Source: Sinimarinibacterium flocculans
GTDB lineage: Bacteria; Pseudomonadota; Gammaproteobacteria; Nevskiales; Nevskiaceae
Direction: 5' to 3'
Assembly: GCF_003201205.1 (NCBI RefSeq)
Contig: NZ_QICN01000002.1
Location: 111,780 to 175,779, forward strand
DNA length: 64,000 nucleotides
Positions 13,780 to 41,819 of this stretch are shown piece by piece. How positions within the stretch are numbered: the stretch's first letter is position 1; each line of letters begins with the position of its first letter. The translations under genes were made by a program, and so were the position numbers. The notes beneath the pieces are model-generated. The model had not been told where the DNA came from. It did no database searches and was given only the letters and a program-made list of their open reading frames with translations.

Positions 13780-13796
13780 ATTGACAACCTGTCATC
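13780..13796. promoter_or_regulatory. Putative operator, site A: ATTGACA-ACC-TGTCATC
   Basis: A 17-bp inverted repeat (7-3-7; the TGACA/TGTCA core is perfect) 18 bp upstream of the GST start at 13815. It is strikingly AT-richer than its surroundings and matches three other sites in the window (18809, 27416, 41803). The geometry suits a TetR-type dimer; the regulator is not identified. Confidence 0.6.
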
Positions 13797-13814
13797 TTCA
13801 ATCCGGACATCCCC

Positions 13815-14432
13815 ATGAAGCTCCATACCTCCAGGGGCGCGGTCAGCCCGGCGCGTGTGCAGTTCTTTCTCGCCGAGAAGGGCATCGAGATCGAATGCGC
13901 ACAGGTCAACCTGATGAAGGGCGAGCACAAGACGCCGGAGTACCGCGCGATCTCGCCGAACGGCCGCAGTCCGGCACTCCAGCTCGACGACGGCCGCGTG
14001 ATCTGCGAGACCTCCGCGATCTGCCGCTACATCGAGGCGCTGCAGCCGGAGCCGCCGCTGTGCGGCACGACGCCGGTCGAACGCGCGCATATCGAGATGT
14101 GCGATCGCATGATGGAGTTCGAGTTGATGATGCCGATGGCGATGACCTTCCGGCACACCTTCCCGGCGATGAAGGCACTTGAGGACCAGGTGCCGGAGTT
14201 CGGCGAGAAGCAGCGCGGCGTCGCGCGCAAGCGCGCCGTGCGGCTCGACAAGCAGCTGGTGACGCAGGACTACATCGCCGGCAGCGAGTTCAGCATCGCC
14301 GACATCACCGCGTGGTGCTCGTTCCGCTTCTTCCGCGTCGCCGGCTTCGAGATCACCGACGAGACGCCGCATCTGAAAGCATGGTTCGCGCGGATCAAGG
14401 CGCGGCCGGCGGCGGCGGTGGCGTTCAGTTGA
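13815..14432 (+). CDS. Glutathione S-transferase, classical two-domain
   Basis: A 205-residue cytosolic GST. The N-terminal thioredoxin-like domain (1-80) has SRGAVSPARVQFFLAEKG, the cis-proline region NGRSPALQLDDG, and ETSAICRYIE for glutathione binding. The C-terminal helical domain has GSEFSIADITAWC, with the conserved Asp of the N-capping box near 160. It probably conjugates or reduces electrophilic substrates with glutathione. The ATG at 13815 is preceded by operator-like site A, so expression is likely repressor-controlled. Confidence 0.88.
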   Translation: MKLHTSRGAVSPARVQFFLAEKGIEIECAQVNLMKGEHKTPEYRAISPNGRSPALQLDDGRVICETSAICRYIEALQPEPPLCGTTPVERAHIEMCDRMMEFELMMPMAMTFRHTFPAMKALEDQVPEFGEKQRGVARKRAVRLDKQLVTQDYIAGSEFSIADITAWCSFRFFRVAGFEITDETPHLKAWFARIKARPAAAVAFS

Positions 14433-14540
14433 TCCGCGCTCGCACCGCTCGGGTCGGGTAGCGCCGGCAGACGCGTGCATGCCCCTCGATCCACCGCGCC
14501 CGTGGCGCGGCACTCGGGGCGAACGATCAAGCCGCGGCGA

Positions 14541-16193
14541 TCAGTTCTGCCAGTAAACGTACTCGTCGTCCTCGCTTTCCTCATCGACGAGCGTCTTGTC
14601 GACGAGCACCGGCAGTTCGACGAAGCTCGGCCACATCGGCTCGGCCATCTGTGCCGCGTGTGCATCGAGCAGCGCGCGCAACTCGGCGACCTTGTCCGGA
14701 TGCTGCGCCGAAACCTCGTTCTGCTCGGTGGGATCGATATCGAGGTGGAACAGCCAGATCTTGTCCGGACGCTCGGCGACCTGCAGCTTCCAGCCCGCCG
14801 ATAACACCATCCGGTAGCTGCCGTCGCGCCAGAACAGCGTGTCGTGCGGCGGCGTCCCGGTCTCGCCGAGCAGATGCGGCAGCAGGTTGGCGCCATCGAT
14901 CGGGCGATCATCCGGCAGTGCGGCGCCGGCCGCGGCAACCGCCGTCGGCACGATGTCGATGCTCGACACCGGATGCGCGAAGTCGACGCCCGCGGGAATC
15001 CGCGCAGGCCACTGCGCGACGTAGGGCACGTGCACGCCACCCTCGAACAGCGTCAGCTTCCAGCCGCGGAATGGCCGGTTCACCTCGGGCAGGCCGATGC
15101 AGTTCGGCGCGCCGTTGTCGCTGGTGACGATCAGCAGCGTGTTGTCGGTCAGCCCCTGCGCCTCCAGCGCCTCGCGCACGCGGCCGACGCTGCGGTCCAC
15201 GCCGCGCAGCATCGCGCCGTAGACACGGCGGCGATGATCGGGAATGTGCGCCAGCGCGTCGTAGTCGGCCTTCGCCGCCTGCAGCGGTGTGTGCGGCGCC
15301 CAATGCGCCAGATAGAGAAAAAACGGACGATGACGGTTGGCCTCGATCACCTTCACCGCCTCGTCGCTGTAGTAATCGGTCAGATAAGCGCCCGGTTCGA
15401 ACCAGTCGCCGGCGTTGTAGCTGGTCGCGTAGCGCATGTTCGCCCACAGGAAGCGATCGATCGGATCGAAGTCCTGGCGCGAGTTGACGACGCCGGAATC
15501 ATCGACCGGCAGATACAGCCCGTTCTCCATGTACAGGCTCTCGTCAAAGCCCTGGTTCAGCGGACGCAGCTCCGGGGTGCCGCCGAGATGCCATTTGCCG
15601 ATATGCACGTTGTGATAACCCGCCGGCTTGAGCATCTCGGCCAGCGTGATCTCGGAGGGCGGCAGTCCCAGTTCATCGAAGCCGGCGATGTCCTTCGCGC
15701 GCTCGGCATGCACGACGATCGGCAGGCGCCGGTTGCCTTCGGCATAGATCGTCGAGGCCATCCGCGCCATGTTGCCCGGCGTCGGCGTGTACTCGAAGCC
15801 GAAGCGCGAGTGGTAGCGTCCGGTCAGCAGCTAGGCCCGTGACGGCGAGCACACCGCATTCGCCGAATAGCCGTTGCGAAAGCGCACGCCGGCGGCGGCC
15901 ACGGCGTCGATGTTCGGCGTCGGCACCTCGGGCATGCCGCCGCCGTAGGTGCTGACGTCGTTGTAGCCGAGATCGTCGAACAGGATCACGACGATGTTCG
16001 GCGGCCGCTCGCCAGCCGGTGCCGACGGCGCCTCGGGGCCGCGTTGCCAGTGCACCTCCCGGTTCGGAGCAACCGGATTCCGGATTGCCGATACCCAGCC
16101 GCTGATGTGCAGCAGGACCGGCAGGCGCGCCGCGTACAGGCCCGCAGCGAGCGCGACGACGACGAGCAGCACGATCGGCAGGCGGCGGCTCAT
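14541..16193 (-). pseudogene. Arylsulfatase-type sulfatase interrupted by in-frame TAG
   Basis: Read from the ATG at 16193, the frame encodes a membrane-anchored sulfatase of 550 residues if the stop is read through. It has an N-terminal hydrophobic anchor (about 6-35), metal site [10 protein letters not shown], the sulfatase signature CSPSRA, then KWHLGG and TSDNGAPN. A TAG at 15833-15831 falls directly after CSPSRA, and the frame continues perfectly as LLTGRYHSRFGFEYTPTPGN. Family members have an amino acid (often Q, A or S) at this spot; TAG is one base from CAG or TCG. Ordinary translation would give a dead 120-residue fragment; reinitiation at 15770 would lack the catalytic Cys. The start overlaps the upstream gene by ATGA. 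The cognate maturase gene at 16883-17749 looks intact. Confidence 0.88.
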
Positions 16194-16864
16194 GGACGCG
16201 CTCCGGCATACCACGGCTGCCGTCGCAGCAGACGATGCAGCAGGCCGCCGAGCGCGATCAGCAGCACGGCGACCGGCATCCGCACGAAGAACAGGCTGAA
16301 CACCGGCCTCGTCGGAAACACCTGCGTCTTCTCGATCGCCGCCCACTTGTGGATGCCGACACCGGCACCGGCGAGGTCGACGACCATCTCGACGAGGTCG
16401 CGCCGGCTGCGGTAGCGCACCAGCGCGACGCGTTCCCAGCTCGTGTGGTCGCCCGGCTCGTCGAGAAAGCGACCCGTCGGCGTGGCGAGGAACAGCGGAT
16501 GGCCGCCGTGCGCAAGCAGCACCGGCACGATCGCGCGGTTGTAGCGCGCGTCCGCCTCGAGCGCACTGCCGCCGTAGCCGGCACCCGGCGGATACTGCGC
16601 CTGCTCGCGGAAGTCGATCAGGTTGAGCATGTAGAGCTCGTCGCCGTCGTCGTTCTCGGCGAGCCGGCGCAGTTCCTCGAACAGGCGCGCCTGCCCATGA
16701 CCTTCGCCTTCTGCAGTGCCGGCGCGTTCGCGGATCTGCGCGAAGTAGGCGTCGAGATCGGCGGCATCGAGCACCTCGGCATCGGCGTCGTACCACGCGA
16801 GGAAACCGGCATAGCACAGCGCCAGCACGGCGACGAGGACACGGGGACCGGTGATCAGGGACAT
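16190..16864 (-). CDS. Membrane-anchored DUF1330/ABM-like hypothetical protein
   Basis: A 224-residue protein with an N-terminal transmembrane segment (about 5-24) and a second hydrophobic segment near 185-207. The middle has the pattern [16 protein letters not shown], similar to the MVNWLRFRERAEYP segment of the protein encoded at 22237-23151. This suggests a dimeric alpha/beta-barrel (DUF1330-like) fold. Its TGA overlaps the sulfatase ATG (ATGA), and it starts 18 bp after the FGE gene, so it belongs to the FGE-sulfatase operon. Function unknown. Confidence 0.65.
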
Positions 16865-16882
16865 GAAGGTTCTCAGCAGGAA

Positions 16883-17749
16883 TCAGCCGACGGGGTCACG
16901 GGCACAACGGAAACCGACGTGCATCAGCGTTGAATCCGGTGTCGCGTGCGCACGGCCGCTGACGCGAAAGCCGTAGCAGACGTCCGGATCGCAGAGGAAC
17001 GAGCCGCCCCTCTGAGCCTTCTCGCGGGCCGGCGTCGCGGCCGGTACGCCGTAGGGCGCATACCAGTCGGCGGTCCATTCCCAGACGTTGCCCGCGAGGT
17101 CCTCGAAGCCGAGTCCATCGCGACCGTAGGCACCGACCGGCGACGTCGCCTTGTAGCCGTCGGCGCCGGTGTTGAGCGCCGGAAACGCGCCGGTCCAGAC
17201 ATTGGCGCGATAGCGGCCGTCGCGCCGCAGCGCATCGCCGAAGGCATGCCGGCCGCCATGGCCGGCGAGGCGCGCGGCATGCTCGAACTCGACCTCGGTC
17301 GGCAGGCGCTTGCCTTGCGCCGTGCAGTAGGCCTGCGCGTCGTGCCAGCTCACCTGCGTCACCGGATGGGTCTCGGTCGCCGCGGGGCCGTCCGGCCCCA
17401 GCGGCCTGCGCCAGTTCGCGCCGGCGACGAGCTGCCAGCGCCCGCTGCCATAGGTCATCACCGAGGCGCTGCCGATGCGCTCCGCCTCGGTGACGATGTG
17501 CTGGCGCGCGACGTGGCGTGCGAATGCCGCCACCGTGACCGGCCCGCGATCCAGCTCGAAAGCCGCGACCGCGGCGACGAAGGACGGCCTTTCGTCCGCG
17601 CGGCTGGCGTCGTCGCCGATGCGTGTCTGTCCGCCGGGCACGCGGATCATGTCGGCCGCTGCGATCACCGGCAACGCCGTCAGCGCAAGCGCGACGACGC
17701 CCGTGCGGCAGCGTCTCCGGCGCGCGTCGATGGGCGGGCGGACCTTCAT
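16883..17749 (-). CDS. Formylglycine-generating enzyme (sulfatase-modifying factor, SUMF1/FGE type)
   Basis: A 288-residue protein with an N-terminal hydrophobic export/anchor segment (about 15-32) followed by a full FGE-sulfatase domain. Hallmarks are the MIRVPGG start, [38 protein letters not shown] and the C-terminal [15 protein letters not shown] with two cysteines (C253, C258) placed as in aerobic copper-dependent FGEs. RAHATPDS and GFRCA complete the family pattern. These enzymes oxidise the Cys of CxPSR in sulfatases to formylglycine, and the partner sulfatase is two genes downstream. The ATG overlaps the stop of the upstream GST-like gene by 4 bp. An intact FGE beside a broken sulfatase is odd. 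Confidence 0.88.
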
Positions 17750-18774
17750 GGCGCCAGCAAGACCTCGCAGCCGCTGCCGCGCAGTGCCTGCGCCAGCCAT
17801 GCCCGATCGTCGTCGTCCAGCGCCGCCGCCTGCGCGCGCAGCGCGTTCAGGCACTTCACCTGGTACGCGAACACCTTCTGCCGCCAGCGCCCGCCCTGCA
17901 CCGCGCACTCCACCCACTCGCCACCCTCGGCACGGGCCTGTGCATTGGCCAGCAGGAACGGCACGTAACTGCCGCCGATCTCGGCGAGCAGCGGCCCCAG
18001 CGTGACGAGCACGGTGTCGCGGTCCAGCCATTGCGCATCGTCGACGCGCCAGCCGCTCAGGTCCTCGCAACGCGCGGTCCAGGCCACGACGCGCGGCGCC
18101 TCGCGCTCGGCCAGCCGCGCCGAGCCGGGATCGAAGGCGCAGAGCTGCGTGAGCTGTCCGTACAGACCGAAATCGCCGGCCGCGGGACGTTCGCCGAACA
18201 GGAACCGGCGTTGTTCCAGCAGGGACTCCAGCATGCCGAGCAGTCGCCGGTAGCCGGCCTCGAGCATCGCCGCGGTCGCGTCGCTGGAACCGACGATCTC
18301 GCGCCGTCCGATCTGGCGGTCGCCGAACCACTGCGCAAACCGTTCGAGCTGCGCCGCCGGCACGGCGGGGTCGATCTGCCGCATCAGCTGCCGCCGCGCC
18401 CAGTCGATGCCGGCGGCGTCGGCCCAGCGGTAGTGGAACATGAACTTGGTGCACCACTCGTCGCCGTAGTCCTCGACCAGTGCGCTGAGGAAGGCCACGA
18501 CCGGATCGGGCGGCAGCAGCGAGCGTTGCGCGTACTCGCGCTCCAGACGCGCGATCAGCGGCGTCGAGTCCACCGCCGCCTCGCGCATCGCCCCCGTCGC
18601 GTCGTGCCAGACGAGCACCGGAATCACCTGGACCGGCACCGGCGGCGGCGCGACGTACTCCGGACCGTTGCCGACGACCCAGACATGCGCGATGCGCCGA
18701 TAGCGCAGCACCGCCCGCAGCTTGCGCGAGTACGGCGAGCCTTCGTTGCCGATGAGGGTCAGCGGCTGGGTCAT
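17746..18774 (-). CDS. Long atypical GST-like protein (paralogue 1)
   Basis: A 342-residue protein with an N-terminal thioredoxin-like GST domain (GSPYSRKLRAVLRYRRI, then PVLVWHD and DSTPLIARLE) and an extended helical C-terminal part with EDYGDEWCTKFMFHYRW (about 105-120). The later ERPAAGDFGLYGQL has the GST helical-domain Asp. About 100 residues longer than a normal GST. The DEW...RW motif recurs in the proteins at 23182, 24383 and 44134, defining a local family. It starts 35 bp downstream of operator-like site B and overlaps the FGE gene by 4 bp. No CxxC is seen, so glutathione or another thiol ligand is likely; substrate unknown. Confidence 0.75.
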   Translation of the reverse strand: MTQPLTLIGNEGSPYSRKLRAVLRYRRIAHVWVVGNGPEYVAPPPVPVQVIPVLVWHDATGAMREAAVDSTPLIARLEREYAQRSLLPPDPVVAFLSALVEDYGDEWCTKFMFHYRWADAAGIDWARRQLMRQIDPAVPAAQLERFAQWFGDRQIGRREIVGSSDATAAMLEAGYRRLLGMLESLLEQRRFLFGERPAAGDFGLYGQLTQLCAFDPGSARLAEREAPRVVAWTARCEDLSGWRVDDAQWLDRDTVLVTLGPLLAEIGGSYVPFLLANAQARAEGGEWVECAVQGGRWRQKVFAYQVKCLNALRAQAAALDDDDRAWLAQALRGSGCEVLLAP

Positions 18775-18808
18775 GGAACTCTCCTCTCCGCCGCGATGGT
18801 GTGACGAA

Positions 18809-18825
18809 CTTTACATCCTGTCAAT
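18809..18825. promoter_or_regulatory. Putative operator, site B: CTTTACA-TCC-TGTCAAT
   Basis: A 17-bp imperfect inverted repeat matching sites A, C and D. It overlaps the stop codon of the ABC1 kinase gene and lies 35 bp upstream of the GST-like gene that reads leftward from 18774. Its position between two co-oriented genes suggests an internal regulated promoter for the GST-FGE-sulfatase segment. Confidence 0.5.
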
Positions 18826-20118
18826 TCCGCGCCGGTCGCCGTCGACGTACCGCGCGAACAGCGTGCGCATCGGCAGCCGCGCGCCGAGCGCGCGCAGCAT
18901 CCAGTACTGGCCGCTGAGCGCACGCATCACGAAGGCGAGCTCCGACACCGGCTGGAACTTGAACGCACTCGACCAGTGCCGGCGCCCGGCGGCGCGCAGG
19001 TTGTCGATGAACGCCGGGTCGGCGCAGTCGAAGCGTTCGCGCGCGAGCAGGCGGTCCAGTCCCAGCGCGACGAACTCGCGATACACCGGCAGCAGCGCAT
19101 CGAAGTCCGCGTCCGCACGCACGCCGCCGAGTTCCGCGAGGGCGGTGTGCAGGCCGTGCCAGTCGTGTGCGCGCGCCGCGCGCAGCAGACGGCGTCCGGT
19201 CTCCACCGTTTGCGGACGCACCTGCTTTACGCAGCCCATGTCGTAGACGACGACGCTGCCGTCGGCACGGAACGCGAAATTGCCCGGATGCGGATCGGCA
19301 TGCACGGCGCGGCCGTCGAAGAAGCTGTGCAGCAGCCAGTGCGCGAGTGTGTCGGCCAGCCGTCCGCGCAGATCGGCGTTCCAGCCGGCCGCGGTTTCCA
19401 GCGTCTCGCCGGACTCCTCGCCGAGCACCAGCACGCTCTCGCCGCACAGTTCCGGCACCGCCTGCGGATAGACGATGCCCGGGACCGCGCAGTCGCGCGC
19501 CAGCGTGTGCAGGTGTTCGAGCTCGATGCGGTAGTCGGTTTCCTCGAGCACGCGCGCGCGCACTTCGGCCATCACCGCGTCCACCGCCGCGGCGTCGACC
19601 GGCAGCAGCCGCGAGGTCTTCAGCAGGCGCCGGAACTGGGTGAGATCGGCGTCGACCGCCTCGCGCACGCCGGGGTAGCGCACCTTGACCACGACCGCGC
19701 ACCCGTCCGCGAGCCGCGCGCGATGCACCTGACCGATGCTCGCCGACGCGAGTGCCACGGGTTCGATGTGTGCCAGCCGTGCCCACTGCGACTTGGTCCA
19801 CTCCGCATCGAGCACGGCCTTGATGTCGGCATACGGCAGCGGCTCGGCGCTGCGCTGCAGCTTGCGCAGCTGGTCGCCCAGCGCCGGCGGCAGCAGCTCG
19901 GCGTACTGCGAGGCGAGCTGCCCCATCTTCATCGCCGCGCCGCGCAGTTCGCCGAGGGTCTCGGCCCAGTCGCGTCCGACCGTCTCCCAGTGCCGCGCGC
20001 GGCGCTCGATCTCGTCGCCCATCGGCAGCTTCTGCAGCACGCTGCGCCCGAGCGTGCGCACACTGGCGCCGAGCAGCTTCATCGTGCGCGACGCCGGGCG
20101 GCGACTCTTGATGCTCAT
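18811..20118 (-). CDS. ABC1/UbiB-family atypical kinase-like protein
   Basis: A 435-residue protein of the AarF/UbiB/ADCK fold. It has the KxGQ-type motif GAAMKMGQLASQYAELLPP (about 60-80), the Ala-rich loop ASASIGQVHRARL (about 120) in place of a Gly-rich P-loop, a Lys in VVVKVRYPG, catalytic HADPHPGNF (about 290) and metal-binding VVYDMG. The family binds nucleotide and lipid and often supports isoprenoid/ubiquinone lipid handling. It has no C-terminal UbiB transmembrane pair, so it is not the housekeeping ubiB. Its ATG overlaps the TGA of the SbtA-type permease gene (ATGA). A role in the GST/permease operon is inference. Confidence 0.85.
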   Translation of the reverse strand: MSIKSRRPASRTMKLLGASVRTLGRSVLQKLPMGDEIERRARHWETVGRDWAETLGELRGAAMKMGQLASQYAELLPPALGDQLRKLQRSAEPLPYADIKAVLDAEWTKSQWARLAHIEPVALASASIGQVHRARLADGCAVVVKVRYPGVREAVDADLTQFRRLLKTSRLLPVDAAAVDAVMAEVRARVLEETDYRIELEHLHTLARDCAVPGIVYPQAVPELCGESVLVLGEESGETLETAAGWNADLRGRLADTLAHWLLHSFFDGRAVHADPHPGNFAFRADGSVVVYDMGCVKQVRPQTVETGRRLLRAARAHDWHGLHTALAELGGVRADADFDALLPVYREFVALGLDRLLARERFDCADPAFIDNLRAAGRRHWSSAFKFQPVSELAFVMRALSGQYWMLRALGARLPMRTLFARYVDGDRRGIDRM

Positions 20119-21062
20119 GCCAGTGCGCGCGCCACGCTGGCGTACAAGCCGATGCCGATGAGCAGGTTGAACGGGAAGGTCAGCGCCATCGGCAGGCCCA
20201 GATACAGGGCCGGGCTCGCATCGGGCAGCGCATGGCGCAGCACCGCCGGCGCGACGATGTAGCTGGCGCTGGCCGACAGCGTTGCCAGCAGGGCAAGGTC
20301 GCCGGCGCCCAGTCCGAGCAGCGTGCCCAAGCCCATCGCGGTCGCGGCGGCCGCCAGCGGAATCGCGAGGGCCAGTACCAGCAGCCACGGCGACAGGCCG
20401 CGCAGGTCGCCGAAGCGACGCGCCACGTCGAGCCCCATCTGCAGCAGGAACAGGGCCAGCATGCCCTTGAACAGGTCGCCGGAGAACGGCTCCATGACGG
20501 TGGCGCCGCGCTCGCCGGTCACCCAGCCGATCAGCAGGCTGCCCATCAGCAGCAGCGGCGCGCCGTCACGTGCGCTGTCCTTGAGCAGGTGGCCCCACGG
20601 CGTGGCCTGGGCACCGGCGTCGCCGCGGCGCGCCAGCGCGATGCCCAGCAGCACCGCCGGCATCTCCATGATCACCAGCGCGACCGACATCGTGCCGCTG
20701 AACGACACGGCGTTCTGCTGCAGGTGCTGGGTCGCGGCGACGAAGGTCACCACGCTGACCGAGCCGTAGCTCGCGGCGAGCGCGCCGGCCTGCAGCACGC
20801 TGGTCACCAGGCGAAAGGCCGCGAACGCGATCAGCGGGACGAGCAGTGCCATCACCAGCGACGCGCCCAGCGCCGCCGCCGCATCGGCATCGATGCCCGA
20901 TCGCGCCAGCGTGAAGCCGCCCTTGAGGCCGACGGCCATCAGCAGGTACAGCGTCAGCCAGCGCACCACCGGCTGCGGCACTTCCAGGTTGGAGCGCAGC
21001 AGACCGGCACCGATACCGAGCACGAAGAACAGTACCGCGGGGTCCAGCAGGGCATCGGTCAT
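20115..21062 (-). CDS. SbtA-type (DUF897) sodium-dependent bicarbonate-transporter-family permease
   Basis: A 315-residue very hydrophobic protein with about ten membrane segments in two inverted halves. Family features include LLDPAVLFFVLGIGAGL at the start, LYLLMAVGLKGG near 45, YGSVSVVTFVAA near 110, and ATLSASASYIVAPAVLRHALP near 260. This matches SbtA, the cyanobacterial Na+/HCO3- symporter family, whose non-cyanobacterial members are functionally uncertain. The ATG at 21062 is preferred over the GTG/TTG-type extension upstream. Coupled by overlap to the ABC1 kinase. Transport substrate here is unproven. Confidence 0.82.
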   Translation of the reverse strand: MTDALLDPAVLFFVLGIGAGLLRSNLEVPQPVVRWLTLYLLMAVGLKGGFTLARSGIDADAAAALGASLVMALLVPLIAFAAFRLVTSVLQAGALAASYGSVSVVTFVAATQHLQQNAVSFSGTMSVALVIMEMPAVLLGIALARRGDAGAQATPWGHLLKDSARDGAPLLLMGSLLIGWVTGERGATVMEPFSGDLFKGMLALFLLQMGLDVARRFGDLRGLSPWLLVLALAIPLAAAATAMGLGTLLGLGAGDLALLATLSASASYIVAPAVLRHALPDASPALYLGLPMALTFPFNLLIGIGLYASVARALA

Positions 21063-21271
21063 GGGGACGCGAAACGGGGGGCAGGAAAAGGGCGCGTCAT
21101 TGCAGCAGATCGGCAGGCACCGCGACAGTCCGCGGGAGTGCAACGCGACGGATGATGCGTGGCAGGCGGCCCAGGGGTCGCGAACGGGCGCGATCCTCCA
21201 CCCGGGGCACCCGAACCGATGCGGCTATCCGTCCCCGCGGCGCTGGCGCCGGAGTGCGAAGCGCGGTTTCG

Positions 21272-22138
21272 TCAGATCGCGCAGCCGGCCGATCGCAGCG
21301 CGCGGCGCAGGTTCGCGTAGTCGCGCGCATGCGCCAGGGCGAGCGGCGGCGTGCTCTCTTCCACGCGACCCATCTCGATCAGCGCCCATTGCACGGCGCG
21401 GGGAACGTTGTCCGCCGGCTGCGCGTCGAGCACCGTCCTGAGCTGCGGCTGCAAGGCCTCGGCCTTCGCACGATCGCCCGACAATGCCGCGTCGTGCAGC
21501 GTGCGCACCAGGCGCGGTACGAGATTGCCGGCGGTCGAGATGCCGCCGGCGAAACCTTCGAGGACGAAGTGGGCCGTGGTGAGGTCGCTGCCGGCGTACA
21601 GCGCAAAGCCCTCGGGCAGCGGCAGGGCGCGCAGCTCGCGCGCCCGCGCCACGTCGGGTGCGCAGTCGACGAAGCCGCTGACACCATCGATGCGCGCGAT
21701 CGCCTCGACCACGGCCGCGGGGATGCGCTGCGCGCTCGATCGCACGATCAGGTGCTGCCGGGCGGCCGCGGCCACCACCTCGACCTGCTCCAGGATCTTC
21801 TCCGTGGACGGCCACGGCGTGGTCGGCAGCGTCAGCAGGACCGCATCGGCTCCCGCCTCGTCGGCAATCTGCGCGAACTCCAGCGAGGTCTCCAGCGCGT
21901 CGGCACTCAGACCGGCAATGATCGCGATGCGCCCCTCGGCCTGCCAGATCGCCCTGCGCAGGAGTTCCAGGCGCTCCTCGGCGTCGAGGTCCAGCGCGGC
22001 GTCGAGCGTGTCGCCCAGCAGCAGCGCCGCACTGCCCTCCACGACGTGCCAGTCGACCAGTGCTTCCAGGCTTTGATACTTGATCGCGCCGTTCGGCTCG
22101 GTGGGGGCCACCAGTTCGACGATGCTGCCCTTGATCAT
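21272..22138 (-). CDS. DapA-family aldolase homologue lacking catalytic residues
   Basis: A 288-residue TIM-barrel protein alignable end to end with dihydrodipicolinate synthase: MIKGSIVELVAPTEPNG start, LVDWHVVEGSAALLL, then DGVSGFVDC and AGSDLTTAHFVLEGFAGGIST. The Schiff-base lysine position (GIKEA in DapA) is a Val (GFVDC), the catalytic Tyr (YNVP) is replaced (LIVRS), and TTGES is GDTLD. By sequence it should not perform class I aldolase chemistry, so it may be a binding or regulatory paralogue. It lies between a DUF1330-like gene (98 bp) and the SbtA permease (209 bp). The ATG at 22138 matches the family start. Confidence 0.75.
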   Translation of the reverse strand: MIKGSIVELVAPTEPNGAIKYQSLEALVDWHVVEGSAALLLGDTLDAALDLDAEERLELLRRAIWQAEGRIAIIAGLSADALETSLEFAQIADEAGADAVLLTLPTTPWPSTEKILEQVEVVAAAARQHLIVRSSAQRIPAAVVEAIARIDGVSGFVDCAPDVARARELRALPLPEGFALYAGSDLTTAHFVLEGFAGGISTAGNLVPRLVRTLHDAALSGDRAKAEALQPQLRTVLDAQPADNVPRAVQWALIEMGRVEESTPPLALAHARDYANLRRALRSAGCAI

Positions 22139-22236
22139 CCGGAGGGTTCCTGGCGCAGACGGAGCCCGGAGTATAACCAAGGAGACCGGGCCTTCCGGGT
22201 GTCGGTGTGCCTTGCCACGACGCTGCGGGCGGACGC

Positions 22237-23151
22237 TCAGACGCCCGTCGTCGTCACCACCAGGCCCTGCCCGCCGTCGGCCAGTCCGGCCGCCCGGTGG
22301 TGCAGCGCGGCCCGGTAGCGCCGCAGCGCCGTCATCCGCCGGAATCCGGCGCGGCCGAGATACTCGACCATCGCGAACTCGTGCCAGAGATCGACGCCGG
22401 GATCGCCACCGTTGCCGACGAGCATCTGCCGGTAGCGACTGACGAACAGCGCCCGCGCACCGAGACTGTGCAGCGCGACGAAGGCACGCTTGCCGTAGCG
22501 GTAATAGGCCGTCTGGCCGGACACGGCCTCGCCGTCAGCGACGGTGTCCGCCGGGTACTCCGCCCGCTCGCGAAAGCGCAGCCAGTTGACCATCACGACG
22601 GGCGCCTGCGGGTCCGGGTGGGCGACGAAGGCATCGTAAGCCGCCTGGGTCGGCATGATGCGGGTGCCGATGCCCGGCTCGGGAGCGGAGTCGGCGCGGT
22701 TGTCGAAGAACGGCCAGCGCGGCAGGGCCAGGGCCATCAGGCGCATGGCGAGGCGTGCGCCGCGCGGCTGTTCGTTGAGCACGGCGATTTCCAGCGCCAC
22801 CGCCTCATCGAACAGCTCGCCGTGCGCCGGGCTCTGCACCATCTCGAGCGCCGCCGCGCGCGTCGCAAAGTGCAGGCGCGCACAGTGCCGGTACAACGGC
22901 AGTACCCCGATGAGGACTTGCTCCTCGGTGCCGGACCAGCGCAAACGGCCGCGATGCGCGGATGCCAGGGCCGCGAGCTTCGTGACGGTTTCTGCGCGGG
23001 TGACGTCGGCACCCAGGCCGAAGCGGTAGAACAGCACGACGGGGCGTTCGGCGTTGCGGCGACGGTACGCGTCGAGTTGGGCGGAACTGGGGATCGGGGC
23101 GGGCATGGGCGGCGGTGGTGCGTCGGCGCGGCGATGCGATCGTTTCGCCAT
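22237..23151 (-). CDS. DUF1330/ABM-like hypothetical protein, probably two repeats
   Basis: A 304-residue protein from the ATG at 23151; an alternative ATG at 23106 drops a short basic tail. Two regions look like dimeric alpha/beta-barrel domains: about 35-120 (PVVLFYRFGL...) and about 165-290 (APVVMVNWLRFRERAEYP, then FVALHSLGARALFVSRY). The second shares the VNxLxFRExAxYP pattern with the protein at 16190-16864. A hydrophobic, non-cleaved segment near 125-140 separates them. Function unknown; co-oriented in the GST-rich operon. Confidence 0.6.
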   Translation of the reverse strand: MAKRSHRRADAPPPPMPAPIPSSAQLDAYRRRNAERPVVLFYRFGLGADVTRAETVTKLAALASAHRGRLRWSGTEEQVLIGVLPLYRHCARLHFATRAAALEMVQSPAHGELFDEAVALEIAVLNEQPRGARLAMRLMALALPRWPFFDNRADSAPEPGIGTRIMPTQAAYDAFVAHPDPQAPVVMVNWLRFRERAEYPADTVADGEAVSGQTAYYRYGKRAFVALHSLGARALFVSRYRQMLVGNGGDPGVDLWHEFAMVEYLGRAGFRRMTALRRYRAALHHRAAGLADGGQGLVVTTTGV

Positions 23152-23181
23152 CGCGGGGAGCGAGCCGTTTCAGGGCATGCG

Positions 23182-24342
23182 CTATTCGGGGCGGACCGGC
23201 TCGGAGCGGATCGGCGGCTCGGGGAGGTCCCAGGGCGTGCCCTGCATGACGCGCAGGCCGTACCAGCGCGTGCCGGGATAGCGTTGCCGCAGCGGCAGCT
23301 CGAACTCGGCATCGAGCCCTGCGGGAACGTCGGCGGCGTCCTGCAGCCAGGATGCGACGCCACTGTCGCGCGTGCGCCCGAGCACGGCCTGCTGCGCGTC
23401 GGGCGGCAGCGCCCGGTAGGCCTTCAGCAGCTGTTCGCGGCAGGCCACGCGATAGCGCACGACCGGCATGCGCGGGTAGTGCGCATCGTCGAGGGTCAGG
23501 TCGAAGCGCCGGCGACCGGCGGCGTAAGCCCGTGCATTGGCATCGAGATAGCGCAGATAGTCACGACCGATCTCGGCGAAGACGGCGTCCCAGGCCGCAT
23601 CGTCGAACGAGGCGAACGCACCGCACCCTTCGCGATCCGCACGCGCCGCCCAGACGCGGCCGACCCAGGCGTAGACGTTCGGCGCAGTGTCGACCATCTG
23701 CTTCGCCGAGTGCGGGTCGAGCGCGAAATGCCGGAACATCGACGCGAAGTAGCCGAAGTCGACGATGCCCGGCCGCGAGCCGAGCAGGAAGGGGCGCTCG
23801 CGCAGCAGCTCTTCGAGCTGCGCCAGCGTGCGCGCATACAGCGCCTGCACCGCGGATGCGTTGTGACGACGCACGCCGTCGCCGCGCACGTAGACGAGGT
23901 ACTGGCGCCAGCGCATGAACCAGCCGAGCAAGGCGGCGGAATGCCAGGTGCCGGCGGACAGGTCGCGCCCGAGGCGGCGGCGCAGCAGACCGTGCGAGTC
24001 GCCGAAGTTCCAACGGAAGTACATCGCCGGCCGCCACAGCCATTCGTCGGCGTAGTCCTCGACCAGCAGGGCAAGGAAGCGCTGCGCCGGATCGTCCGGA
24101 TAGATCGACGGCGCGCCGTGCTGCGCATCGAGCCAGGCGATCATCGGCGTGGTGTCCTTGAGCCAGCGCCCGTCCGGGCACTGCATGCACGGCACCTTCA
24201 TGAAGCCGGTTGCCGGCAGGATGGTCTCGCGCATCACGCGCGTGTTGATCTCGACGCGCCGGTACGCGATCCGGGCATAGCGCAGATAGGCTTCGAGCTT
24301 GCCGCTGTAGTAGGACACGTCGGAAACGTAGGCGGTGTACAT
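23182..24342 (-). CDS. Long atypical GST-like protein (paralogue 2)
   Basis: A 386-residue protein with an N-terminal thioredoxin-like GST domain (DVSYYSGKLEAYLRYARIAYR, then MKVPCMQCPDG and KDTTPMIAWLD). The helical domain has EDYADEWLWRPAMYFRWNFGD (about 105-125) and LLGSRPGIVDFGYFAS. It shares the extended length and DEW...RW motif with paralogues 1, 3 and 4. Start at the ATG at 24342. It follows paralogue 3 by 40 bp on the same strand, so a tandem pair. CMQC near 55 is not at the usual thioredoxin active-site position. Substrate unknown. Confidence 0.75.
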   Translation of the reverse strand: MYTAYVSDVSYYSGKLEAYLRYARIAYRRVEINTRVMRETILPATGFMKVPCMQCPDGRWLKDTTPMIAWLDAQHGAPSIYPDDPAQRFLALLVEDYADEWLWRPAMYFRWNFGDSHGLLRRRLGRDLSAGTWHSAALLGWFMRWRQYLVYVRGDGVRRHNASAVQALYARTLAQLEELLRERPFLLGSRPGIVDFGYFASMFRHFALDPHSAKQMVDTAPNVYAWVGRVWAARADREGCGAFASFDDAAWDAVFAEIGRDYLRYLDANARAYAAGRRRFDLTLDDAHYPRMPVVRYRVACREQLLKAYRALPPDAQQAVLGRTRDSGVASWLQDAADVPAGLDAEFELPLRQRYPGTRWYGLRVMQGTPWDLPEPPIRSEPVRPE

Positions 24343-24382
24343 CCCGCCAGTCGCTGGCGCGGCGGATTGCGGGCGCACCGGT

Positions 24383-25480
24383 CTATTCCGGCGCGACGCG
24401 CAGCGCCATGCGCCTGAGGCGCGGGACCGGCAGGCGCATCGCGTCCGCGGCACCGACCGCCGCCAGCCAGTCGTCGACCGCGGTGCGTCCCGCGTCATCG
24501 AGTCCCCGGTAGGCGTCGAGCACGCGTTGCGCCATCCACAGGCTGTACGGCCGCGCGCTGAGCCCGAAGTCGCTGCCGGCCAGCGTCGTCCGGACCCGAC
24601 CCAGCGCGCGCGCATAGCCGCGGCCCGGCGCTAGGTCCGGCGTCGCCTTCTGCACCTCGTCCAGCGTGCCGCGCAGATACGGCCAGAACTCGCCGAAGAC
24701 CGATGCGAACAGCGGCGCCAGTGTCGCCGGCACGTCATCGTCCGGCAGGAAGCCGCCGCGCGCATCGGCCGGCGGATCGCACATGCGCCGCACCCAGTCG
24801 GCGAGATGCCGGCGCGGCGCGATCAGCGTGCGCGCCGGCACCGGATCGCGACCCAGGTGCGCATACAACGGGCCGATCAGGCCGTAGTCGCCGAGGCTCG
24901 CGCGCGTGCCGAAGAGGTAGGGATGCCGGGCGAAGTGTGCGTCGAGGGCGTCGCACATCGAGACGGTCCAGCGTTCGATACTGTCTGTCTGTGCCGGCAC
25001 GACGCCGAGCACCGGCAGGAAGCCGCGCATCGCCCCCGCCGCACGCGCGACGACGCGGTTCTTCAGGAACCGCGGCGCGAACGGCAGCAGGTTGTCGCCG
25101 CCCTCCGGCGCAAAGACCGCGCGATAGTTCTCGTCGAAGTGCCAGCGGTAGTGCATCGCGCTCGGCAGCCAGAACTCGTCGCCCCAGGCTTCGAGCAGAC
25201 AGGCCGCGACACGCTGGCGCGGCGTCTCCGGCACCACCGGCTGGTCGGCGAAGCGCGTCTCCAACACGTCGATGATGTGCGAGGTGTCCTGCAGCCATTC
25301 GTCCTGCGGCGTGACCACCACCGGCATGACGTTGGCGCCGGTCCGGCACCGGATCTCGCGCATGTCCCACAGCGTCACGCGCTTCTCGCGGAACGCGATC
25401 CGCTTGTGCCGCAGGTAGGCGCGGACCTTGCCGCTGTAGAGCGAGAGTTCCCAGCCGTAGAGCAGGTGGGGACGCGTCAT
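24383..25480 (-). CDS. Long atypical GST-like protein (paralogue 3)
   Basis: A 365-residue protein. The N-terminal GST domain shows GWELSLYSGKVRAYLRHKRIAFRE, MPVVVTPQDEW and QDTSHIIDVLE. The helical part shows LEAWGDEFWLPSAMHYRWHFDE (about 95-115) and LFGTRASLGDYGLIGPL. It belongs to the same extended family as the neighbours at 23182 and 17746. It is 22 bp downstream of the nu-class GST gene, in the same operon-like run. A detoxification or glutathione-dependent catabolic role is plausible; nothing in the sequence names the substrate. Confidence 0.75.
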   Translation of the reverse strand: MTRPHLLYGWELSLYSGKVRAYLRHKRIAFREKRVTLWDMREIRCRTGANVMPVVVTPQDEWLQDTSHIIDVLETRFADQPVVPETPRQRVAACLLEAWGDEFWLPSAMHYRWHFDENYRAVFAPEGGDNLLPFAPRFLKNRVVARAAGAMRGFLPVLGVVPAQTDSIERWTVSMCDALDAHFARHPYLFGTRASLGDYGLIGPLYAHLGRDPVPARTLIAPRRHLADWVRRMCDPPADARGGFLPDDDVPATLAPLFASVFGEFWPYLRGTLDEVQKATPDLAPGRGYARALGRVRTTLAGSDFGLSARPYSLWMAQRVLDAYRGLDDAGRTAVDDWLAAVGAADAMRLPVPRLRRMALRVAPE

Positions 25481-25502
25481 TCCACGCCGCCGCGCCCGGC
25501 GG

Positions 25503-26201
25503 TCACTTCTGCAGCATGGTCTGCGCGCCCTTGACGAAGGCCCGCGTGGCGTCGGTCTCCTCGTCGAGCGACGGCAGCTTGACCGGCACCTCGATGCCCT
25601 TGACGCAGGCGGGCCGTGCGTACATTGCGTCGAGCCAGCGCTTGAGGTTCACCAGGCCGTCGATCTTCACGCCCGACCACTTGTACGTGCGCACCCACGG
25701 CCAGGTGGCGATGTCGGCAATCGAATACTCGTCCGCCAGCCACTCGCTCTCGCCCAGATGCCGGTCCAGCACCTCGAACAGCCGGCGACACTCGTTCTGG
25801 TAGCGGTCGATCGCCGGCTGGATCTTCTCCGGGAAGTAGCGGAAGAAGACATTGGCCTGGCCCATCATCGGGCCGACGCCGCCCATCTGGAACATCAGCC
25901 ACTGCAGGGCACGCGAACGGCCCTTGGCATCCTGCGGCAGGAGCTTGCCGGTCTTCTCCGCCAGGTAGATCAGGATCGCCCCGGACTCGAAGACGGTGAA
26001 GTCGCCGTTGTCGGTGTCGACGATCGTCGGGATGCGGCCGTTGGGATTCAGCTTCAGGTACTCGGGCTTCTTCTGCTGCCCCTGCATCAGGTCGATGGCG
26101 TGTACGTTGTACGGCAGCCCCAGCTCCTCGAGCACGATGGAGACCTTGTGTCCGTTGGGTGTCGCGGCGGTGTAGAGCTCGATCATCTCGGTACTCGGCA
26201 T
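25503..26201 (-). CDS. Nu-class GST / YfcG-YghU-like disulfide-bond oxidoreductase
   Basis: A 232-residue GST of ordinary length. The N-terminal [21 protein letters not shown] is typical of the YfcG/YghU (nu) class, whose TPN motif binds glutathione or glutathione disulfide. [12 protein letters not shown] and [17 protein letters not shown] follow, then a C-terminal domain with [14 protein letters not shown]. Family members reduce disulfides or peroxides with glutathione. Translation from the ATG at 26201; longer readings add a basic peptide overlapping the neighbouring gene. It sits 25 bp after the MBL-fold gene on the same strand. Confidence 0.88.
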
Positions 26202-26226
26202 GTGGGGAAAACGGAAGGGTGGACGC

Positions 26227-27300: not shown

Positions 27301-27415
27301 GTCGCAGCGCGCGCCGGGCGGGACTTCACCTGCACGTGCGCCGGCGGCGCGGCCCGGCCTGTCGAGGGATGCATCGGAGCTCCGCAATCGTGTGACGCGC
27401 GCATCCTTTCGGTTT

Positions 27416-30247: not shown

Positions 30248-31522
30248 ATGACCGCACCCACACCCCCGCTGCGCTGGCTGCCGATCTCCGGCCTGCCACG
30301 CTCCTTCAAGTCGCGCATCGCCGAGCGCGTCGCGCGCTCGCGCGATCCGCTCGCGCGCCTGCGCGCGGGCCGCCGCCTGGAGCTGTACTACGAGGTGGGC
30401 GACCCGCACTCGCAGCTCGCCGCGGCACTGGCGCGGCGCATCCACGCGCGCCTGCCGACCGGCCTGGACCTGCGTCTCGTCCCCCCGCCGGACGCGCACA
30501 CCTATCCGGAGGAAGCGAAGCAGCGCGACTTCGCCGCGCGCGACGCCGCGCGGCTGGCGCCCTGCCACGACCTGCCTGCGCCCGTCCCCGTGCCGCCGGC
30601 GCAGCGCGCCGCCATGCAGGCGCGGCTGGCGCAGGCGCCCGACGCCGCCACGTTTCTCGCCGTCGAGCGCGACTGCCTCGACGCGCTGCGCGACGGCCGC
30701 CCGCTGGCCCCGCCTCCCGGCGAGGACCGCACGGCGCTGGTATTGCAGGCCAACGCCGAGCGCCGCCGCCGGCTCGGCCACTACCTGCCGGCCATGTGGC
30801 AGTACCGCGGCGAATGGTTCTGGGCGCTGGATCGGCTCGACTTCCTGCACGCCCGCCTGCAGGCGGACAATGCGCTGCAAGGCGACGATCCGCTGTCGCC
30901 GCTCGATGCCCGTCGGCTGGTGACGGACGACCGCGATCCGTCGGCGCCGCTGGAGTGCTGGTTCAGCTTCCGCAGCCCGTACTCGTATCTCGCGGTGGTG
31001 GAGCTGCTGCGGCAGCGCGAGGCCGGCCGCCACCCGACGCTGCAGCCGCGCCCGGTGTTGCCGATGATCATGCGCGGCCTGCCGGTGCCGGCGGTCAAGC
31101 GGCTCTACATCGTGCGTGACGTGCATCGCTGCGCCGCCGCGCAGGGCATCCCCTTCGGCCGCATCCACGACCCGGTGGGCGACGGCGTGCTGCGCGTGCT
31201 CACCGTCTACCCCTACGACGCCGATCCCGACACCCAGCTGCGCTTCGCAGCCATCGCCATGCAGAGCATCTGGGCCGAAGGGCTCGACCTGTGCCTCGAC
31301 GCCAACCTCGCGTCAGTGTTCGCCCGCTGCGGGCTGGATTGGCCGGCCGCCCAGCGCACGCTCGCGCAGGGCATCGACACCGCCCGCGCGGAAGCCAACC
31401 GCGACGCCCTGTTCGACGCCGGCCTGTGGGGCGTGCCGAGCTTCCGCCAGGGCGCCTTCACCACCTGGGGACAGGACCGCATCTGGATGCTGGACCGGCC
31501 TGCGGCCGGGCCGTCGTCATAG
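30248..31522 (+). CDS. DsbA-fold / HCCA-isomerase-like protein with two related regions
   Basis: A 424-residue protein. The C-terminal 200 residues form a DSBA-type thioredoxin domain of the 2-hydroxychromene-2-carboxylate isomerase group: CWFSFRSPYSYLA near 236, PVLPMIMRG, then AGLWGVPSF with the cis-proline. The N-terminal half (LELYYEVGDPHSQLAAALARRI) looks like a second, degenerate copy. Such proteins use glutathione to isomerise or reduce substrates and fit the GST-rich setting. It starts at its own ATG at 30248, 83 bp after the natural receptor stop. Because of the receptor frameshift, the two genes share one open frame. Confidence 0.78.
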   Translation: MTAPTPPLRWLPISGLPRSFKSRIAERVARSRDPLARLRAGRRLELYYEVGDPHSQLAAALARRIHARLPTGLDLRLVPPPDAHTYPEEAKQRDFAARDAARLAPCHDLPAPVPVPPAQRAAMQARLAQAPDAATFLAVERDCLDALRDGRPLAPPPGEDRTALVLQANAERRRRLGHYLPAMWQYRGEWFWALDRLDFLHARLQADNALQGDDPLSPLDARRLVTDDRDPSAPLECWFSFRSPYSYLAVVELLRQREAGRHPTLQPRPVLPMIMRGLPVPAVKRLYIVRDVHRCAAAQGIPFGRIHDPVGDGVLRVLTVYPYDADPDTQLRFAAIAMQSIWAEGLDLCLDANLASVFARCGLDWPAAQRTLAQGIDTARAEANRDALFDAGLWGVPSFRQGAFTTWGQDRIWMLDRPAAGPSS

Positions 31523-37949: not shown

Positions 37950-37975
37950 GACTCGGCCATAGGTTCCACAACCTA

Positions 37976-39779: not shown

Positions 39780-39787
39780 GGCTACGC

Positions 39788-39815: not shown

Positions 39816-39818
39816 GAC

Positions 39819-40955
39819 TCAGGCGATGCGCTGGAAGAACCAGGCGCAGCCCAGCGCGAGCATCAGCGCCGGCAGCCACGGCCGGTGCAGCGCGGGCCAG
39901 CGGCGGGCGAGCCACCACAGCGGCAGCACGAACAGGAGCTGACCGAGTTCCACGCCCAGGTTGAAGCCGGCCAGCGGCAGCGCCGGCACCGCCTGCCCGG
40001 CGTTGAGTTCGCCGAGCACCCCGGCGAAGCCGAAGCCGTGGAACAGGCCGAACAGCCCCGTGCGCAGGCTGTCGAGTCGCGTGTCGAGCCCGCCGCCCAG
40101 GATCAGCAGCACCGCAGCGGCAGCGAGCGGCCCAGGCAGCGCGCCGGCAATCCAGCCGACCAGCGCCAGCGCGCCGGTCAACGTCGCGATATGTGCCGCC
40201 GCCCGCGCCTGCCCGGCCAGCACGCGCTCGGCGGCGAAGCAGGCGATGGTCAGCGCGATGAAGCTTTCCACCATCAGCGCCGGCGGGCGCACCGCGCCCA
40301 GCGTGGCCAGGATCAGCGTCGCGCTGTGCCCCACCGTGAAGCCGGTGATGCGCCACGCAAGCTGGCGCAGCGAGGCGGCACCGAGCAGCAGCACGACCAG
40401 GAACGCCAGATGATCCCAGCCGATGAGGATGTGCTCCGCTCCCAGCCACAGATAGCGCGAGAACGCCGGTTCGGGAACGGCTGCGCCGTACGCGCCGACC
40501 CTCACCCGCGGGCGTGCGGCGCTCAACGCGAATGGGCCGATCAGGCCGTCGCCCGTGCGCATCTGCAGCAAGTGCAGATGGCCAGCAATCGCGTCGAGCA
40601 AAAAGCGCGTCTCGATCTGCTGCGGCGGCCCGTCGCAGCGCCAGCGCGCCTCGACGATGAAGTCCGCGCCGCTACGGCGCGCCTGGGCGGAGGCGTCCGT
40701 GCAATGGCCCGCTGCCGATGACGGCACGAAGCCATTGCGCACGCGGCTGGCCAGCTCATCGAGGATGCGCGGGTCCTGCGGGTGCAGGCTGGCGCGGTTC
40801 AGCTCCACGCCGGGCAGCCGCACCTGGGCGTGCAGCACGGCATCCTCGACCGTCCATGTCGAGTACGACACCGAGCGGTTGTGGGCCTGCGCCGGCAGCG
40901 CCGCGCACAGCAGCACGCACAGCAGCAGGCCGCGCCGGGCGGCGTCAGCGCGCAT
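39819..40955 (-). CDS. HupE/UreJ-family membrane protein with N-terminal exported domain
   Basis: A 378-residue protein. A signal peptide (LLLCVLLCAALPAQA) leads to an exported beta-rich domain (about 25-165, SVSYSTWTVEDAVLHAQV). The HupE/UreJ_2 membrane region follows (about 185-375), with LGAEHILIGWDHLAFLVVLLL, FTVGHSATLILATLG and GLFHGFGFAGVLGEL. The conserved His/Asp in the first and third motifs are HupE hallmarks linked to metal transport in hydrogenase and urease systems. It overlaps the PpiC gene by 11 bp and reads leftward from it. Confidence 0.85.
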   Translation of the reverse strand: MRADAARRGLLLCVLLCAALPAQAHNRSVSYSTWTVEDAVLHAQVRLPGVELNRASLHPQDPRILDELASRVRNGFVPSSAAGHCTDASAQARRSGADFIVEARWRCDGPPQQIETRFLLDAIAGHLHLLQMRTGDGLIGPFALSAARPRVRVGAYGAAVPEPAFSRYLWLGAEHILIGWDHLAFLVVLLLGAASLRQLAWRITGFTVGHSATLILATLGAVRPPALMVESFIALTIACFAAERVLAGQARAAAHIATLTGALALVGWIAGALPGPLAAAAVLLILGGGLDTRLDSLRTGLFGLFHGFGFAGVLGELNAGQAVPALPLAGFNLGVELGQLLFVLPLWWLARRWPALHRPWLPALMLALGCAWFFQRIA

Positions 40956-41802
40956 CGCTGGCGTAGCGGATCGCCGCGTCGCGGCGCAGCTCGGTGAGCA
41001 GCGCCTCCAGCGCCTTCTCGGCCTCGCGGCGCTGCCACTCGCTGCGCACGGCGTCAGCCACGTCCTCGTAGCGCACGGCATCGGCATAGCGCTGGCGCAG
41101 CAGCACGTACAGCGCGCCGCGCCCCTGCACGAACGGTCCCAGCAGCTCGCCGGCCGTGGCCCGGTGCAGCGCGCCGGCCGCGGCGCCGCCGAGGCGCTGC
41201 GCGATCTGCGGCAGCGGCAGCGGTTCTTCGGGTAGCGCCACGGGCTCGAAGCCGGCAGGCAATGGGCGCCCCTCGCGCAGCGCGTCCTGCAGAACCTCGC
41301 CCAGCGCCCCACGAGCAGCGGTGGCGTCATCCTGCGCCGCCGCGTCGTTCGTCCGCACGGCGACCACGGCCAGCCGCGGCTGCGCTGCGAAATACGCCGG
41401 ATCGCGCGCAAACAGCGCCCGCGCCGCATCCTCGTCGACGGCGCCGCCCGCGGTCGTCGCGTCAATCAGCGCCGCGACCAGGGTCTTGCGCAGGCCCGGA
41501 TCGTCGCGCGCCAGGCCGCTGTCGAGCGCGTGCTGGAACAGCAGTTCCTCGTCGATGAGCCGGTCGAGCACGGCGCGTCGTTCTTCGCCGTCGAGCGCCC
41601 GTGCGCGATCGCCCTCTACGGCCTGCACGGCGCGCTGCCACTGGTCGCGACCGATCGCCTGGTCGCCGACGACAGCCGCGGCGCCGGCCGGCAGGGGCTT
41701 GCCCCGCCCCTCGTAAAGCAGCGACAGTGCGGCCAGCAGGCCGCCCGCGGCGACCGCAAGCCAGGCCAGGCGGATGCGGCCGGCGTCGGTTTCGTTCAAC
41801 AT
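40945..41802 (-). CDS. Membrane-anchored PpiC/parvulin-type peptidyl-prolyl isomerase
   Basis: A 285-residue protein with an N-terminal membrane anchor (about 10-30) and a SurA-like helical chaperone region (VVGDQAIGRDQWQRAV, then LDRLIDEELLFQHALDSGLA). The parvulin-like domain near 140-235 shows an ALREGRPLPAGFEP...LGPFVQGRGALYVLL pattern typical of PpiC domains found beside HupE and DUF3604 proteins. It probably folds an exported client in the periplasm. Its ATG (41802) abuts operator-like site D. Confidence 0.8.
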   Translation of the reverse strand: MLNETDAGRIRLAWLAVAAGGLLAALSLLYEGRGKPLPAGAAAVVGDQAIGRDQWQRAVQAVEGDRARALDGEERRAVLDRLIDEELLFQHALDSGLARDDPGLRKTLVAALIDATTAGGAVDEDAARALFARDPAYFAAQPRLAVVAVRTNDAAAQDDATAARGALGEVLQDALREGRPLPAGFEPVALPEEPLPLPQIAQRLGGAAAGALHRATAGELLGPFVQGRGALYVLLRQRYADAVRYEDVADAVRSEWQRREAEKALEALLTELRRDAAIRYASDAR

Positions 41803-41819
41803 ATTGACGCAGTGTAAAT
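41803..41819. promoter_or_regulatory. Putative operator, site D: ATTGACG-CAG-TGTAAAT
   Basis: A 17-bp imperfect inverted repeat directly against the PpiC start codon and 45 bp upstream of the DUF3604 ATG, between divergent genes. It matches sites A-C in length, spacing and most positions. Bound here, a repressor would cover the leftward ribosome-binding region and probably the rightward promoter. Confidence 0.52.

Follow-up and report, generated by a model that had tools for sequence, protein, structure and literature searches.

Palindromic promoter sites and a predicted local TetR regulon of glutathione S-transferase and sulfatase genes in Sinimarinibacterium flocculans

Which protein would read the near-identical palindromes standing before the glutathione S-transferase (GST) genes of Sinimarinibacterium flocculans, and which genes would it govern? 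The question is raised by a stretch of 64,000 nucleotides (hereafter the window; contig NZ_QICN01000002.1, positions 111,780 to 175,779, G000:C2:111780-175779 in our numbering) of a genome of 4.40 Mb in 39 contigs, in which a first-pass annotation had pointed out four inverted repeats of a 7-3-7 layout and interpreted them as the mark of a TetR-type regulon. Our comparisons favour, with a probability of about 0.87, the reading that these palindromes are operators of one local TetR repressor, encoded at 12497–13135 on the forward strand of the window, placed over the promoters of GST, metallo-beta-lactamase (MBL), sulfatase, TonB receptor and DUF3604 genes.

Palindromes cluster in the promoters of one chromosomal region

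The four 17-bp palindromes at 13780, 18809, 27416 (a perfect one) and 41803 were verified letter for letter. A search of the window with ATTGACANNNTGTCAAT, allowing up to three mismatches, returned 6 matches against 0.40 expected, a number reached in none of 100 dinucleotide shuffles, which bears out the claim that such sites are unlikely by chance. When the whole genome was scanned with ATTGACA-N3-TGTCAAT at up to two mismatches, only five places were found (none with a reversed control pattern), four of them being the window sites, grouped within 28 kb (0.64% of the genome), and the fifth (C10:16753) lying inside open reading frames (ORFs). The genome scan, based on a pattern and not on a matrix, thus gave promoter sites at four of five places. 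At up to three mismatches, 31 places were detected compared to 8 in the reversed control, so matches of this weakness are uninformative. The relaxed word WTTKACANNNTGTMAAW matched 12 places of the genome at up to two mismatches (control, 2), five of them in the window.

In addition, the window was scored with a symmetric matrix built from 43 sites (36 unique) found in 26 of 28 foreign loci carrying orthologs of the TetR gene, the window itself being excluded from training. The best scores corresponded to 27416 (32.1), 18809 (27.8), 27500 (26.4), 41803 (23.7) and 13780 (19.3), after which they dropped to 5.1 at 12488 and 0.3 at 7578. Across 400 simulated windows there were 0.0025 hits per window at a score of at least 15 and none of at least 19. 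Because of its score against this background, the palindrome GTGGACACCATGTAAAT at 27500–27516, absent from the first-pass list and 84 bp from the perfect site, on the TonB receptor side, is regarded as a predicted fifth operator.

The four predicted operators of the first-pass list lie where the annotation had placed them, as distances and gaps confirm. The one at 13780–13796 is 18 bp upstream of the GST gene at 13815, and in G019, a genome of another family, the ortholog of this gene likewise has a site before it (L124:9703). The site at 18809–18825 is 34 bp upstream of the run formed by the long GST gene at 17746, a formylglycine-generating enzyme (FGE)-like gene and the sulfatase; the perfect one, at 27416–27432, occupies the divergent gap between the MBL and TonB receptor genes, with the fifth 61 bp upstream of the receptor start. 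Finally, the site at 41803–41819 fills the divergent gap between the PpiC-type and DUF3604 genes, abutting the start codon of the former (CAT at 41800–41802), and a site is found in the same gap in G056, G004, G011 and G059. All six Pfam-supported GST genes fall in runs downstream of a site, as had been claimed, and each run would be a single transcript. Of the 74 sites scoring at least 10, 36 were intergenic, compared to 8.7% of the DNA (p 4e-19), and 59 were promoter-proximal, compared to 20.7%, figures that are descriptive, as they use crude gene calls and the matrix-training loci.

A TetR-family protein is the probable regulator

The protein encoded at 12497–13135 passes the curated cut-off of the TetR_N helix-turn-helix (HTH) domain (PF00440, 40.2 bits vs. 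24, E 3e-10). Its AlphaFold model has nine helices at a mean predicted local confidence (pLDDT) of 86, in an all-helical TetR fold with the HTH at the N-terminus, and the 50 listed fold matches carry mostly TetR- or LuxR/HapR-type descriptions; in this model, the C-terminal domain would be the ligand-binding domain of the TetR fold. Nine NCBIfam TetR models matched it, none of them at its cut-off, with FasR, BetI, KstR, SlmA, MftR and ScbR all below, so by its sequence it is classed as a TetR protein outside any named group. No other DNA-binding domain was found among the window ORFs given to Pfam, from 12497 to 47278. This gene, only one candidate among others in the first-pass annotation, is very probably the owner of the palindromes, as suggested by the comparison with other genomes described below.

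The sites follow the TetR gene across genomes

Orthologs of the TetR protein were sought in 85 genomes of the order at a cut of E 1e-15, all the positives being at 1.3e-70 or better. The 17 genomes with an ortholog contained 2 to 8 sites each (mean 4.24, at most one mismatch), whereas the 68 genomes lacking it contained 0 to 3 (mean 0.88), a difference with p=1.1e-10 (2.8e-10 without the window's genome), values that overstate independence, the genomes being related. The reversed control pattern showed no such difference (0.41 in positive vs. 0.65 in negative genomes, p=0.72). The positive set spans three families (f1, f2 and f4), reaching beyond the order into Burkholderiales and Spongiibacteraceae, and an MBL match at E 1e-60 is present in 27 genomes, all 17 positive ones included.

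A scan of the 20 nearest genomes with the relaxed word at one mismatch revealed grouped sites in G004, G008, G011 and G015, amid homologs of the window GST, MBL, DUF3604, HupE, PpiC and DSBA/TonB-side genes together with the TetR ortholog; G013 showed the same gene set with weaker sites. A profile of six aligned TetR proteins then recruited 48 loci, of which 28 (L047-L074, 35–68% identity) were taken as orthologs, from Solimonas, Sinimarinibacterium, Stagnimonas and other Nevskiaceae, Limnobacter and other Burkholderiales, and Zhongshania and other Spongiibacteraceae. The 20 weaker loci (L075-L094), which belong to actinobacteria and Acidobacteria and have identities of 27–48% in shorter or full-length alignments, were excluded. 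Conservation in relatives is found in both respects, the motif being met again at genes of the same kinds and following the presence of this TetR gene.

Promoter positions were mapped on the window, on 17 named loci and on 18 stretches of 16 genomes, some single and some joined, by searching for sites scoring at least 12 between 330 bp before and 60 bp after the extrapolated start. With the window excluded, and with a large overlap with the matrix-training loci, such sites were found at 14/16 DSBA-type genes, 9/12 DUF1329 genes, 18/27 orthologs of the GST at 24383 and 5/6 TonB receptor genes, followed by DUF3604 (4/10), the sulfatase at 14541 (4/21), HupE (3/27), and the single matches of the GST at 13815 (1/1) and of g22237 (1/1). 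The start of the regulator itself bears a site in 23 of 33 mapped orthologs of gamma- and betaproteobacteria, many of them in training loci. In the Limnobacter-type loci (L055-L065, L068, L070, L071) it stands directly before the TetR gene in 14/14 cases, in the gap that separates this gene from a GST-type match of opposite orientation, and it is also strong in G013, G051 and G019. Near the TetR start of L047-L054, ATTGTC-type copies score 10.3–21.9, those of L047 (G004) and L050 (G008) being about 20 and those of L051 and L053 also being stronger than the window copy.

The training set did not include four of the TetR-positive genomes (G011, G015, G019 and G051), and these contained 11 sites scoring 21–35 and one of 13. 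In G051 they occupy the GST/TetR, DUF1329/DUF1302 and PpiC/DSBA gaps; in G011, the DUF3604/PpiC gap and a position 1 kb before the MBL gene; in G015, one is before the MBL gene and one elsewhere. In G019 the TetR gene, its start overlaid by a site, is on contig 2, and contig 1, lacking the gene, bears one site between the MBL and sulfatase genes, one upstream of the ortholog of the GST at 13815 and, spaced by 72 bp, two upstream of the TonB receptor.

Pairs of predicted operators, 16 bp apart and sharing one base, were detected before DUF1329/DUF1302 genes in six loci (L048:12277/12293, L049:12294/12310, L051:12085/12101, L053:12041/12057, L054:12174/12190 and L070:13941/13957), where side-by-side dimers are possible. 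Sites were also seen in L038-L043 and L045, where the window genes have no homologs save for DUF1302-type matches in L038, and in L046, where the site adjoins a partial TonB match.

Evidence against a single local repressor, alternative explanations and the preferred reading

Several observations weigh against the assignment of the palindromes to this TetR protein. Its own start in the window bears only the degenerate sequence TTTGTCGGGGTGTCACT (12488–12504, over the GTG codon), sixth best in the window, with a score of 5.1, when a score of 5 is attained somewhere in 16% of 400 simulated windows; likewise, the matrix scores around the TetR start are too low for a good site in L066 (6.1), L067 (5.3) and L072-L074 (-3.3, -1.0 and -18.8). 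A weak autoregulation would be likely. Only 4/29 MBL orthologs had a site scoring at least 12 near their start, and none was found for GST23182 (0/23), FGE (0/13), GST17746 (0/9), GST25503 (0/7), GST44134 (0/5) or PpiC (0/5), nor for DUF1302 (0/13, with a C-terminal query), Sulf15831 (0/3), NaAla (0/2) and four families each represented by a single match, counts to be read knowing that extrapolated starts are poor for the over-long window ORFs (FGE, PpiC, MBL) and that most genes without a site lie within runs. The 18809 site has no counterpart at the same gene in the mapped orthologs; a site of score 33 lies upstream of an FGE-sulfatase run in G061. A search at the expected distance from the window sites gave no -10 box. 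Furthermore, 12 of the 68 TetR-negative genomes hold at least two sites, three of them holding three (G069, G020 and G083). In G020 and G083 every site is on a different contig, and G069, of the same genus as G019, has two sites letter-identical to those of G019, one also 2.0 kb from an MBL gene, its MBL ortholog being 71% identical, with no TetR ortholog detected in the draft (93% complete). Either the gene was missed in this draft or the sites outlived it.

The G069 case would also fit a different TetR protein, encoded elsewhere and recognising a similar word, as would the number of candidates, with 35 TetR_N matches in the window's own genome. One of them, at C3:272707, has its HTH preceded, starting 81 bp upstream, by the similar palindrome TGTGACACTGTGTCAGA (G000:C3:272626-272642, L135), perhaps the word of a second regulator. 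In genus g3 (G012, G030-G046), a mismatch-free site is present in 7/18 genomes (G012, G032, G035-G038 and G044) and the 12497-type TetR in 0/18, and those sites may belong to another regulator. However, the number of sites tracks the 12497-type gene over the 85 genomes, and sites stand at the start of this very gene in two classes of proteobacteria, which makes ownership by another TetR improbable.

More improbable still is that the palindromes are core promoter -35 boxes facing both ways in divergent gaps. Each half holds TTGACA, TTTACA or a near form, a -10-like hexamer is found at 18 bp in the Limnobacter-type loci, and in 87 unique sites pooled, -10-like matches exceeded those at control offsets (p 3e-5, confounded by AT-rich flanks), the clearest peak outside the site edge being at a spacing of 18 and many of the best cases being similar Limnobacter promoters. 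But all five window sites have at most 3/6 matches to TATAAT at 16–18 bp, a sigma-70 scan of 13000–28500 (with 41803 outside it) found 0 promoters, both arms are conserved, in sites picked by a two-arm, fixed-gap matrix, and simple boxes would not follow the distribution of a single TetR gene among genomes. A role of one half as a -35 box and an operator role of the whole can both hold. As for chance palindromes or a scattered repeat, the sites are few and two of the four carry two mismatches to the strict word beyond one arm change; the shuffles, the grouping of four of the five genome places within 28 kb and the recurrence elsewhere with the TetR gene leave this explanation barely any likelihood. 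The operator assignment to the protein at 12497 is thus retained as the preferred reading.

Under this assignment, a TetR dimer would recognise WTTKACA-N3-TGTMAAW with one 7-bp arm per subunit and, once bound, would shut the promoters of the GST, MBL, sulfatase, TonB and DUF3604 genes, until released by a ligand that would most likely be a substrate or intermediate of the pathway. In the Limnobacter-type loci, where a TNTAAT-like hexamer lies 18 bp beyond the GST-facing half TTGACA, the operator would cover the -35 box of the GST promoter and repress by covering it. The motif, its clustering, its recurrence at equivalent promoters and its joint presence with this TetR gene are observed, and the predicted parts of the mechanism are the binding, a repressing and not an activating effect, the ligand and the extents of the operons.

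Genes under the predicted operators

To the right of the regulator, the first target would be a GstA-like GST (13815–14432, forward strand; Pfam GST_N/GST_C, with the NCBIfam GstA model below cut-off). On the reverse strand, a type-I sulfatase gene (14541–16193; Pfam) shows an in-frame amber codon (TAG) at 15831–15833, right after its CSPSRA active-site motif. Type-I sulfatases carry the motif Cys-x-Pro-Ser-Arg; here CSPSR is present and the reading frame is not intact. A selenocysteine reading of this stop was rejected, as the codon is TAG and the active-site cysteine is intact, and the G019 ortholog (L123:4098-5750) is uninterrupted, with 550 amino acids (aa) and 72.5% identity. Upstream of it, on the same strand, are the FGE-like protein (domain extent 16883–17659; PF03781 at aa 267–520 of ORF 16883–18457) and a long GST (17746–18774; Pfam).

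Four other genes on the reverse strand follow the MBL/TonB gap: long GSTs at 23182–24615 and 24383–25480 (both by Pfam), the latter of 365 aa with a model of pLDDT 92, nearest in fold to StyI plus a C-terminal extension; a GST at 25503–26507, found by Pfam and similar to glutathione-dependent disulfide-bond oxidoreductases, below the NCBIfam cut-off; and an MBL-fold hydrolase at 26227–27300 (Pfam). The closest solved sequence to the latter is 8gyg, annotated as an arylsulfatase (E 1.2e-23), and RNase Z and PNGM-1 chains match it too, so its resemblance to MBL-fold arylsulfatases is only a likeness. On the other side of the gap, on the forward strand, the TonB-dependent receptor (27578–30161; Pfam) undergoes a frame change near 29984, close to its C-terminus, by which a 1314-aa ORF runs into the gene of a DSBA/2-hydroxychromene-2-carboxylate-isomerase-like protein (30278–31522, forward strand; PF01323). 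The G019 receptor (868 aa) is separate, and the apparent TonB-DSBA fusion was rejected as a domain fusion on account of the frame change. A DSBA-type relative in L054 (17976–19199) matches 2imd, a 2-hydroxychromene-2-carboxylate isomerase. That both the sulfatase and the receptor are broken in one regulon may reflect decay or an assembly error.

The last group comprises a HupE/UreJ-type protein (ORF extent 39819–41465, PF13795) and a PpiC/SurA-N-type protein (40945–41802, PF13624, with the start read from the sequence), both on the reverse strand, and, on the forward strand, a DUF3604 protein (41844–44126, PF12228, with a CehA/McbA metallohydrolase match below cut-off) and the long GST behind it (44134–45312; Pfam).

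Left of the regulator, positions 14–12419 encode polyketide synthase (PKS)-like KR, DH and ACP domains and a phosphodiesterase-type gene. The question raised in the first-pass annotation, whether sites would also concentrate at lipid genes, was answered in the negative there, the sole match found being the weak, intragenic one at 7578 (score 0.3), and these PKS/lipid genes were dropped as targets.

The predicted pathway and its significance

Sulfatases of the MBL and type-I kinds, an FGE, GSTs, a DSBA-type protein and a TonB receptor, together with the neighbours found in G055, where the 20 kb before the site C4:89580 encode a P450, an alcohol dehydrogenase, a flavin reductase-type gene, a short-chain dehydrogenase/reductase (SDR), MBL, DUF3604 and a PpiC-type gene, suggest a sulfated hydrophobic substrate. 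From these gene assignments, the regulated pathway would most likely take up a hydrophobic sulfated compound, remove its sulfate and convert it in a glutathione-dependent manner, an algal sulfolipid being a guess for this compound. More speculatively, and rather doubtfully as a whole, the genes could form an undescribed catabolic pathway of aquatic proteobacteria for such a compound (e.g., an algal sulfolipid, perhaps halogenated), with uptake through TonB and DUF1302/DUF1329 proteins, desulfation by both MBL-type and formylglycine sulfatases, opening by several specialised GSTs, and control of the whole by a single TetR sensor transferred from order to order along with its operators.

For the long GST, DUF3604, HupE/PpiC and MBL sulfatase genes, which have no known purpose and keep each other's company in Solimonas-type gammaproteobacteria, Limnobacter and Zhongshania, the predicted regulon would provide a regulator and an operator along with a list of targets. 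Screening inducers against a single repressor-promoter pair could identify the substrate of the pathway, which the sequence by itself does not reveal.

Comparison with known systems

No description of this regulon or of its target set was found in the literature searched, by titles and abstract openings and with most subscription journals outside the search. Among solved structures, the regulator is closest to FasR of Mycobacterium tuberculosis (6o6n/6o6o/6o6p), which comes first both in the profile comparison against the PDB (E 3e-11) and as nearest solved fold, but it differs from it in sequence (19–23% identity; 40.3 bits vs. an NCBIfam cut-off of 330). FasR acts on fatty-acid synthesis, different from the targets here. 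Among the target genes, the 365-aa GST has StyI of Gordonia as best fold match over 248–249 columns, differing from it by a 17% identity and about 115 additional residues, and IsoI, like StyI an epoxide-pathway GST, is only weakly matched (26 bits, or 37 for the GST at 23182, vs. a cut-off of 300).

The closest parallel is with local TetR regulons, in which one TetR repressor acts on palindromes at several promoters, often including its own. The system described here differs from those with named regulators in that no matching NCBIfam TetR model reaches its cut-off, and shares with them the TetR_N domain, the all-helical fold, the palindromes in divergent promoters and, in many relatives, the sites at the TetR start. 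The sites and the TetR protein very probably form a genuine, conserved regulon whose details are new and whose kind is ordinary.

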